DNA of 64,000 nucleotides from Tabrizicola sp. Lineage in GTDB: Bacteria > Pseudomonadota > Alphaproteobacteria > Rhodobacterales > Rhodobacteraceae. Positions 16,944 through 17,989 of this stretch are shown here, in pieces. The stretch's first letter is position 1; the number at the start of each line of letters is the position of its first letter. A program made the translations under genes and the position numbers. Location of the stretch: positions 62,001 through 126,000 of the forward strand of contig NZ_JAEULP010000088.1 of the NCBI RefSeq assembly GCF_016792905.1, read 5' to 3'. Below the pieces are notes generated by a model. The model saw nothing but the letters and a program-made list of their open reading frames with translations. It made no database searches and was not told the DNA's origin.

Positions 16944-16960
16944 ATGCTGCATGGCAGCAT
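16944..16960. promoter_or_regulatory. Perfect palindrome upstream of the DUF1127/CcsR locus
   Basis: ATGCTGC-ATG-GCAGCAT is a perfect 7+7 inverted repeat in the 221-base gap between divergent mrp and the DUF1127 gene. It is followed by TTGATC and by further TGCA-containing short repeats to about 17010. It is the best operator candidate for this locus. No convincing RpoH-type promoter could be fixed by eye. Confidence 0.45.
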
Positions 16961-17057
16961 TGATCAGACCCGCTATTGTGCATCTGCAGCATGAGGCGCA
17001 TGTTACCCCTAACAACGCAACAGACGTTGCCGATGAACCTGAAGAGGCTTGAGTAAG

Positions 17058-17273
17058 ATGGCTTATGTGAACACCACCCCCGTTGCCCGCAAGGGTTTTG
17101 CTGACCGCCTGGCTTTCGTGAAGGACATCGTCCTGACCGCGTTCAACCAGCGCCGCGTCTACGCCCGCACCGTGGCCGAACTGAATTCGCTCACCGACCG
17201 TGAGCTCGTCGATCTCGGCATCTCGCGCCTCGGCATCACCGAGATCGCCCGCGAGGCCGCCTACGGCAAATAA
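17058..17273 (+). CDS. DUF1127 small basic protein, CcaF1-like
   Basis: 71 residues from the ATG at 17058, which has GAAGAGG ten bases upstream; an in-frame TTG at 17049 is too close to it. The C-terminal half is the DUF1127/YjiS motif: RRVYARTVAELNSLTDRELVDLGISR followed by an IAREAAYGK end. In Rhodobacter sphaeroides the homologue-type protein CcaF1 is an RNA-binding protein co-transcribed with and needed for maturation of the CcsR small RNAs. The hairpin array that starts 8 bases after this stop makes the same role very likely here. Confidence 0.9.
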   Translation: MAYVNTTPVARKGFADRLAFVKDIVLTAFNQRRVYARTVAELNSLTDRELVDLGISRLGITEIAREAAYGK

Positions 17274-17280
17274 GTTTCGC

Positions 17281-17353
17281 CCGGGGTCCCTCCTCCTCCC
17301 TGGACCCCGGCGACCTGCGGCGATGCCCCTCCCTCCTCCCTGGGCACCGCCGC
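17281..17353 (+). ncRNA. CcsR-like RNA unit 1
   Basis: First hairpin: CCGGGGTCC (17281-17289) pairs perfectly with GGACCCCGG (17302-17310) around a CTCCTCCTCCCT loop. Second hairpin: 17317-17328 with 17342-17353, one A-C mismatch. It is followed by a type-A spacer with its own small hairpin GGACC/GGTCC at 17362-17376. Confidence 0.85.
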
Positions 17354-17386
17354 CCCCATTCGGACCGCGAAGGTCCACCCTGATCG

Positions 17387-17453
17387 GACGCCTCTCCTCC
17401 TCCCTGGCGTCTGGTAACGCGGCGGTGCCAATCCTCCTCCCTGGCATTGCCGC
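17387..17453 (+). ncRNA. CcsR-like RNA unit 2
   Basis: First hairpin: GACGCC (17387-17392) with GGCGTC (17406-17411). Second hairpin: 17419-17429 with 17443-17453, 11 pairs including two G-T. Both loops contain CCTCCTCCC. A type-A spacer follows, with small hairpin GGGCC-AAAA-GGCCC at 17463-17476. Confidence 0.85.
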
Positions 17454-17485
17454 CCCCATTCCGGGCCAAAAGGCCCAACCCCATC

Positions 17486-17555
17486 GGGTGCCCTCCCTCC
17501 TCCCCGGGCGCCTGGTACTCGCGGCGGGGCCTCTCCTCCTCCCTGGCCCCGCCGC
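17486..17555 (+). ncRNA. CcsR-like RNA unit 3
   Basis: First hairpin: GGGTGCCC (17486-17493) with GGGCGCCT (17506-17513), two G-T pairs. Second hairpin: GCGGCGGGGCC (17521-17531) with GGCCCCGCCGC (17545-17555), perfect. Both loops carry CCTCCTCCC. The next spacer is the short, hairpin-free type B. Confidence 0.85.
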
Positions 17556-17568
17556 GTGAAACCATCCC

Positions 17569-17635
17569 GAGCCCGCTCCTCCTCCCAGGGCTTGTGATCC
17601 GCGGCGATGCCTCTCCTCCTCCCTGGCATCGCCGC
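17569..17635 (+). ncRNA. CcsR-like RNA unit 4
   Basis: First hairpin: GAGCCC (17569-17574) with GGGCTT (17588-17593). Second hairpin: GCGGCGATGCC (17601-17611) with GGCATCGCCGC (17625-17635), perfect. Both loops carry CCTCCTCCC. The type-A spacer after it has CAGGCC/GGCCTG at 17644-17660. Confidence 0.85.
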
Positions 17636-17669
17636 CCCCATTCCAGGCCGAAAAGGCCTGAACCTGATC

Positions 17670-17737
17670 GGGCGCCTCTCCTCCTCCCTGGCGCCTGGTA
17701 ACGCGGCGGGGCCTCCCTCCTCCCTGGCCCCGCCGCG
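17670..17737 (+). ncRNA. CcsR-like RNA unit 5
   Basis: First hairpin: GGGCGCC (17670-17676) with GGCGCCT (17690-17696). Second hairpin: 12 perfect pairs between 17702-17713 and 17726-17737. Both loops carry CCTCCTCCC. A type-B spacer follows. Confidence 0.85.
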
Positions 17738-17752
17738 CCAACTCATCCCGAA

Positions 17753-17816
17753 GGCCCCCTCCTCCTCCCTGGGGCCGGACGGATCGCGGCGGGCCCCTCC
17801 TCCTGGGCACCGCCGC
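17753..17816 (+). ncRNA. CcsR-like RNA unit 6, with a decayed second loop
   Basis: First hairpin: GGCCCC (17753-17758) with GGGGCC (17771-17776), loop with CCTCCTCCC. Second hairpin: GCGGCG and GCCC (17786-17796) with GGGC and CGCCGC (17805-17816), loop only CTCCTCCT, so the final CCC of the motif is missing. A type-A spacer follows (CGGGC/GCCCG at 17825-17840). Confidence 0.8.
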
Positions 17817-17849
17817 CCCCATTCCGGGCGCGAAAGCCCGAAGGCCATC

Positions 17850-17920
17850 GGTCGCCCACCCTCCTCCCGGGCGCGCCGACCCTGCGGCGGCCCTCTCTCC
17901 TCCTCCCTGAGGGTCGCCGC
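17850..17920 (+). ncRNA. CcsR-like RNA unit 7 (last)
   Basis: First hairpin: GGTCGCCC (17850-17857) with GGGCGCGCC (17869-17877), one bulge. Second hairpin: 12 pairs between 17884-17895 and 17909-17920. Both loops carry CCTCCTCCC. The last stem is followed by CTTTCCCC, a weak tail, so read-through to the transporter gene is possible. Confidence 0.82.
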
Positions 17921-17989
17921 CTTTCCCCTCTTGCAGCCCGGCCCTGCCCACGGAATAGTCCCGCGACGCCATTCGCCTGGGACACCATC

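Follow-up and report, generated by a model that had tools for sequence, protein, structure and literature searches.

The region from 17281 to 17920 on the + strand of the window, by which we mean the whole stretch of 64,000 nucleotides that was analysed, carries the ccaF1-CcsR (CIN1, cuckoo RNA) locus of a Tabrizicola-like bacterium from the family Rhodobacteraceae. The locus is built of two-stem-loop units with CCUCCUCCC loops and stems conserved in structure, and a DUF1127 gene stands directly upstream. It is a real and well-constrained member of a known small RNA (sRNA) family, and its size is inside the range of the genus. The best explanation, which we hold with high confidence by analogy with relatives in which such silencing has been shown, is a stress-induced array of CcsR-type anti-Shine-Dalgarno sRNAs that would silence mRNAs. 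To what is known of the family the analysis adds separator hairpins, a conserved palindrome, a narrow Rfam cut-off and a possible miscount in the model organism.

The array consists of 14 consecutive stem-loops arranged as seven two-hairpin units, the first stem starting at 17281 and the last ending at 17920 (Table 1). The sequence-only reading had described this arrangement, with 13 exact loops and second stems always framed by GCGGC/GCCGC, and its description was confirmed with exact coordinates. The loop CCTCCTCCC is exact in 13 of the 14 stem-loops, the exception being CCTCCTCCT at 17796 in the second stem of unit 6, and GCGGC/GCCGC forms the base of the second stem in seven of seven units. 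Both strands of the window were searched for exact CCTCCTCCC: all 13 copies on the + strand fall in the array, and none was found on the - strand or outside the array. Dinucleotide shuffles of the region 17274-17930 (500 shuffles) contained on average 0.26 and at most two motif hairpins, against the 14 observed, and an origin of the array by chance was rejected on this ground; the same search returned three on the + strand and none on the - strand in the other 63 kb of the window. The motif positions are spread over all three reading frames, which argues against a coding repeat, and this candidate was also rejected. When all 657 nt are folded together, the minimum free energy structure pairs arms of unit 1 with arms of unit 2, so that "14 separate hairpins" is a statement about local folding. 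The last unit is succeeded (window 17921-17970) by a tail, CTTTCCCC..CTTGCAGCC, and then by a GAATAGTCC-like word; this succession recurs in several relatives and is possibly a conserved 3' end or an element of the next gene.

Table 1. Features of the ccaF1-CcsR locus, in window coordinates.
Feature	Position	Strand	Remarks
Palindrome TGCTGCATGGCAGCATTG (contains CTGCN3GCAG), presumed operator	16945-16962	+	Exact match; conserved in relatives
RpoH-type promoter (predicted)	16976-17004	+	-35 TTGTGC 16976-16981, 17-nt spacer, -10 CATGTT 16999-17004
ccaF1-like gene, 71-aa DUF1127 protein	17058-17273	+	PF06568 E 2.3e-11; 73-93% identical homologues in 12 loci
CcsR-like unit 1, stems 17281-17310 and 17317-17353	17281-17353	+	Clusters with first units of 11 other loci
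Junction 1-2, separator hairpin GGACC-GCGAA-GGTCC	17354-17382	+	
CcsR-like unit 2	17383-17453	+	CcsR1 match
Junction 2-3, separator hairpin GGGCC-AAAA-GGCCC	17454-17482	+	
CcsR-like unit 3, then short junction without hairpin	17483-17556	+	Sole unit without whole CcsR1 match
CcsR-like unit 4	17564-17635	+	Best RF02791 match, 48.0 bits
Junction 4-5, separator hairpin CAGGCC-GAAAA-GGCCTG	17636-17666	+	
CcsR-like unit 5, then short junction without hairpin	17667-17737	+	CcsR1 match
CcsR-like unit 6, second loop CCTCCTCCT	17753-17816	+	Weakest unit, 35.8 bits with model R1
Junction 6-7, separator hairpin CGGGC-GCGAAA-GCCCG	17817-17852	+	
CcsR-like unit 7 (terminal type)	17853-17920	+	Clusters with last units of eight other loci

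That the stems are maintained by compensatory changes, as had been claimed from the letters alone, was borne out in two sets of units. The first comprised 28 of 70 extracted units, chosen by eye because their first stems were alike, with a structure written by hand; the 42 units left out of it included first units and B-type units. In this set 96.3% of cells were paired and eight of the 21 pairs had changed on both sides (40 cells), while in slid controls 35-54% were paired, with 2-13 double-changed cells. The second set covered 121 units of all types from 24 sources (the window, L008-L020 and L022-L031; 118 distinct rows), with 93.2% of cells paired and changes on both sides at all 21 pairs (459 cells), compared with 36-61% and 28-80 cells in slid controls. 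None of 500 shuffles was as high in any of five measures for either set, although the shuffles ignore relatedness and the 121-unit alignment (A3) was fitted to the structure. Covariation, the absence of which the earlier reading had named as one of its refutations, is thus present. Pairing in the 121 units was 87.2% for the first stem and 98.5% for the second. RNAalifold on the first MAFFT alignment, of 33 units of mixed type, recovered the second stem only, probably because the first stems were out of register.

Across the same 121 units the nine columns of the loop motif are 97-100% conserved in both hairpins, a figure biased upward because the model was trained on motif-chosen units. The eight outer columns of the left arm of the first stem are 38-73% conserved, and several first-stem columns fall below 50%. 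Nearly invariant loops on stems that need only pair are as expected where the letters of the loop and the pairing of the stem are constrained. A tandem repeat maintained at the DNA level by replication slippage, without RNA function, might be suggested by the likeness of the inner units and by near-identical copies in an R. sphaeroides-like locus (see below), but it is contradicted by the covariation, in which double changes preserve the stems and leave the loops nearly invariant, and we regard it as barely credible. An extended terminator or 3' protective tail of the DUF1127 mRNA, with the motif incidental, would agree with the position of the array 3' of the gene, with its strong hairpins and with the CTTTCCCC-type tail that follows the last unit in several loci. 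A terminator, however, needs neither such conservation of loop letters nor seven copies, and this explanation appears very improbable.

Assignment to the CcsR/cuckoo family, also proposed earlier, was examined with the Rfam covariance models. A search of the whole window at gathering scores gave no match and was for this reason repeated in E-value mode, in which CcsR1 (RF02791) matched six of the seven units at E<=0.0085 (best E 2.4e-10, 48.0 bits) and ar14 (RF02344) matched with a best E of 1.5e-8; both are below the gathering scores, and both support the assignment. No unit reached the RF02791 gathering cut-off of 65.3 bits. Among 295 genomes of the bacterial family, only 10 pass this cut-off though 250 match CcsR1 at E<=0.01, and we therefore read the low score as due to the model, not the locus, and the cut-off as a narrow threshold for annotation that does not define the family biologically. 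As a control, CcsR1 matched one of 14 unrelated genomes (Thermus composti), below the cut-off. The cuckoo RNA family of Reinkensmeier and Giegerich (2015) consists of adjacent hairpins with identical CCUCCUCCC loops on stems that vary freely, and in these traits the window array is like it. With ar14/NfeR1 (RF02344) the array shares an identical loop motif and paired hairpins. It differs in that ar14 has three hairpins, each with the motif, and that NfeR1 has its own RpoD-type promoter according to an excerpt of PMC10746234, whereas the window units have two motif hairpins and lie behind a DUF1127 gene; a third hairpin, where present, is without the motif.

The DUF1127 gene that the sequence-only reading had placed ahead of the array ends seven bases before the array starts. 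Upstream of this gene and divergent from it is a gene for an Mrp-type P-loop NTPase, and downstream of the array one for a BenE-type transporter. In an alignment of the 200 bases ahead of the DUF1127 gene from 23 loci (the window, L008-L019 and L022-L031), ATTGTGCA and GCAGCA were invariant and CATGTT was kept in 20 of the 23. This promoter block is common to the window, the R. sphaeroides-like locus L022 and 21 other loci, and its RpoH-type character, as predicted from sequence, is consistent with the stress-type setting suggested earlier. In R. sphaeroides, an RpoHI/RpoHII promoter is reported for ccaF1 (excerpt of PMC10253847).

The likeness to R. sphaeroides ccaF1-CcsR1-4 (RF02791, CIN1) comprises the 71-aa DUF1127 protein, the promoter block and the two-hairpin CCUCCUCCC units. 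Assembly G051 is probably R. sphaeroides 2.4.1-like by the sizes of its seven replicons (3188524, 943018, 114179, 114045, 105284, 100827 and 37100 bases). Its locus L022 (G051:C4:690874-693956) has a gene for a 71-aa DUF1127 protein, and behind this gene stand seven two-hairpin units, of which the last five are near-identical. Its second stems are mostly GCGGC/GCCGC and its upstream neighbour is Mrp-type by eye; unlike the window, which has two short junctions between units, L022 has only long ones (six, 30-39 nt). R. sphaeroides CcaF1 is 71 aa long (PMC10253847, in part), and four CcsR RNAs are named there, CcsR1-4, formerly RSs0680a-d (passages of PMC5036791 and PMC10253847). The earlier statement that R. 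sphaeroides has four CcsR RNAs agrees with the naming in these papers but not with the R. sphaeroides-like locus, which shows seven. Either near-identical copies were not numbered separately or the assemblies differ.

The array had been called expanded, or amplified, a description that counts of units across genomes do not support. Protein-based retrieval gave 14 loci, 12 of them close (L008-L019; 73-93% identical) and labelled as Tabrizicola (six), Rhodobacter (two) and metagenome-assembled genomes (MAGs) of Rhodobacteraceae, Rhodobacterales or Pseudomonadota (four). A covariance model, R1, built from the 28 units (three of them from the window), counted 4-8 units per locus in the 12 close ones, of which L010 ends at a contig edge, and seven in the window; these are the only units in this genome, all within the array. 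The distant locus L020 (46%) has one weak R1 match, upstream of the gene, and L021, with a 53% match over 39 residues and no motif, was left out. A run of Ns lies inside the eight-unit array of one MAG (L013:2978-3034), where the unit count is uncertain.

Of 32 genomes from the genus, 30 match R1, with 2-8 units each; the remaining two have completeness values of 70% and 81%. Two units are found in one genome, three in four, four in ten, five in six, six in six, seven in one (that of the window) and eight in two; the counts are per genome, at least two genomes (G315 and G317) match on two contigs, and some of the genomes are sources of L008-L019. Seven or more CcsR1 matches occur in 10 of the 295 family genomes, this one included, with a maximum of 11, these counts being rough because at most 14 candidates were scored per genome. 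Seven units are in the upper part of the genus range and inside it, and strain-specific amplification is rejected by this range together with the seven units of the R. sphaeroides-like assembly. The breadth of the matches in the genus also counts against maintenance by slippage. In a quick tree of 71 short unit sequences, the first units of 12 among 13 loci group together, as do the terminal units of nine loci, and inner units are mostly of two alternating types; the division into first, A, B and last types is tentative, the tree having been taken without support values. The alternation of two inner types suggests, as far as the sequences go, that the array may have grown by duplication of an inner two-unit module.

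The junctions between units have a structure of their own that was absent from the earlier reading. Small extra hairpins without the motif are present in four of the six window junctions (after units 1, 2, 4 and 6). The 58 junctions of 13 loci (the window and L008-L019) divide into 43 long and 15 short ones. Every one of the 43 long junctions can form a local hairpin, the best being of 4-7 bp and often capped by a GCAA, GAAA or UUCG-like loop, while 29% of base-shuffled long junctions form such a hairpin. The register of the best hairpin deviates in at least three junctions (that behind unit 3 of L009 and those behind unit 1 of L012 and of L015), and the long junction after unit 3 of L013 includes Ns. 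The short junctions (2-9 nt between model ends) contain no hairpin and have hardly room for one. When arms were exchanged between junctions, the four loop-proximal pairs were kept in a mean of 18.2 and a maximum of 27 of 43, the value of 43/43 for these pairs in the junctions themselves holding by construction. Separator stems thus differ in letters and yet pair, which is a further point against slippage.

The junctions also bear on how the array may be processed. It could work mainly as one long multivalent tail that undergoes little processing, its anti-Shine-Dalgarno loops, up to 14 in number, serving to sponge mRNAs or to keep the ccaF1 mRNA stable: two of the six window junctions, and 15 of the 58 over the 13 loci, are short and without separator, so paired units may stay joined. 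We consider this improbable, as the CcsR RNAs of R. sphaeroides are described as RNase E-derived species (in parts of PMC8625941 and PMC7866481) and as each of the 13 close loci has at least one separator junction.

The explanation that we prefer, a stress-induced CcsR-type array, would proceed as follows. Heat or oxidative stress would lead an RpoH-type sigma factor to transcribe the DUF1127 gene and, with it, the 3' tail, as the promoter block suggests. RNase E, modulated by the DUF1127 RNA-binding protein, would then cut the tail into CcsR-type RNAs in the manner of R. sphaeroides, and every unit would display two CCUCCUCCC loops, single-stranded and borne on stems rich in GC. These loops copy the anti-Shine-Dalgarno tail of 16S rRNA and are therefore expected to bind Shine-Dalgarno sequences of mRNAs; as with NfeR1, they would pair with GGAGG-rich ribosome-binding sites and silence the mRNAs. 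Of the earlier proposal on these loops, their anti-Shine-Dalgarno-like nature is upheld, and the suggestion that they mimic ribosome-binding sequences is not. With loop letters and stem pairing as the sole constraints, units may duplicate freely, and copy number would likely set dose and redundancy, not new specificity.

Much of this scheme has precedent in excerpts of published work. In R. sphaeroides, CcsR is co-transcribed with ccaF1 and processed by RNase E (PMC10253847, PMC8625941, PMC7866481), and PNPase turnover, Hfq association and stress induction are described (PMC10253847, PMC8625941, PMC8307010, PMC5036791, PMC7866481). CcaF1 is reported to promote the maturation of CcsR by RNase E (PMC10253847), whereas, to the contrary, more CcaF1 is reported to interfere with it (PMC8307010). 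The three CCUCCUCCC loops of NfeR1 are redundant, and ntrB is silenced by pairing at the translation start (PMC10746234). In this genome, perfect complements GGGAGGAGG are found 3-9 bases ahead of an ATG six times, compared with two in the reversed control; two of the six, ahead of a homogentisate dioxygenase-like and a PotC-like permease gene, are plausible gene starts by eye and are leads only. With so few perfect nine-base complements, targets are predicted to be mostly shorter matches.

Between the palindrome CTGCATRGCAGCATTG and the RpoH-type -35 downstream of it are 12 bp, TGCTGCATGGCAGCATTG standing 12 bases ahead of ATTGTGCA, and CTGCN3GCAG occurs once in the 64-kb window. All 13 close loci, the window among them, carry this core without a mismatch, and over the 23 aligned loci the count is 18; the R. 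sphaeroides-like locus is not one of these. A compound pattern, searched with up to three mismatches in 100 of the sampled family genomes, was found in 40 of them (41 places), and in none with the reversed pattern as control. The core is exact in 28 of the 41 places and at least one base off in 13, the central triplet is ATA or ATG in all 41, and at least 17 have a CcsR1 match, among the matches listed, no more than about 750 bases away. With two or three mismatches the palindrome has ten other places in this genome.

A site CTGCNNNGCAG (CTGCN3GCAG) is quoted for R. sphaeroides PhaR, and the S. meliloti PhaR motif is stated to require an R-N-Y centre (both in passages of PMC12542648). The palindrome fits the former consensus and not the latter, its centre being ATR; this fixed centre counts against PhaR. 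The PhaR gene is present in this genome. About 1 kb upstream of it the phasin family PF09361 matches at 21.9 bits, below its cut-off of 24.9, and two CTGCN3GCAG sites, with centres AAT and ACC, stand ahead of the phasin-like frame. PhaR is present in 96 of the 100 family genomes and hence hardly discriminates: the compound pattern is absent from the four without a PhaR match, two of them less than 85% complete, but equally from 56 of the 96 with PhaR. Among the literature matches listed, PMC10371769 is the sole paper whose available text matches both CcaF1/CcsR1 and 'phar'. It is conceivable, though doubtful, that the array is under RpoH plus PhaR (or another regulator) through the palindrome, which would couple carbon storage to the dose of stress sRNA, and that, through the alternation of long and short junctions, two-loop monomers and four-loop dimers are released in a defined mixture.

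An array of seven CcsR units is nothing out of the ordinary for its group, and the standard Rfam cut-off conceals the family in most of the sampled genomes that match. The array count of R. sphaeroides, four in the papers, calls for a recount and is possibly a miscount in the model organism. The palindrome and the separator hairpins offer two testable handles on the dosing of anti-Shine-Dalgarno RNA. If PhaR were to prove the regulator that acts at the palindrome, this sensor of PHB granules would be linked to the dosing of sRNA.
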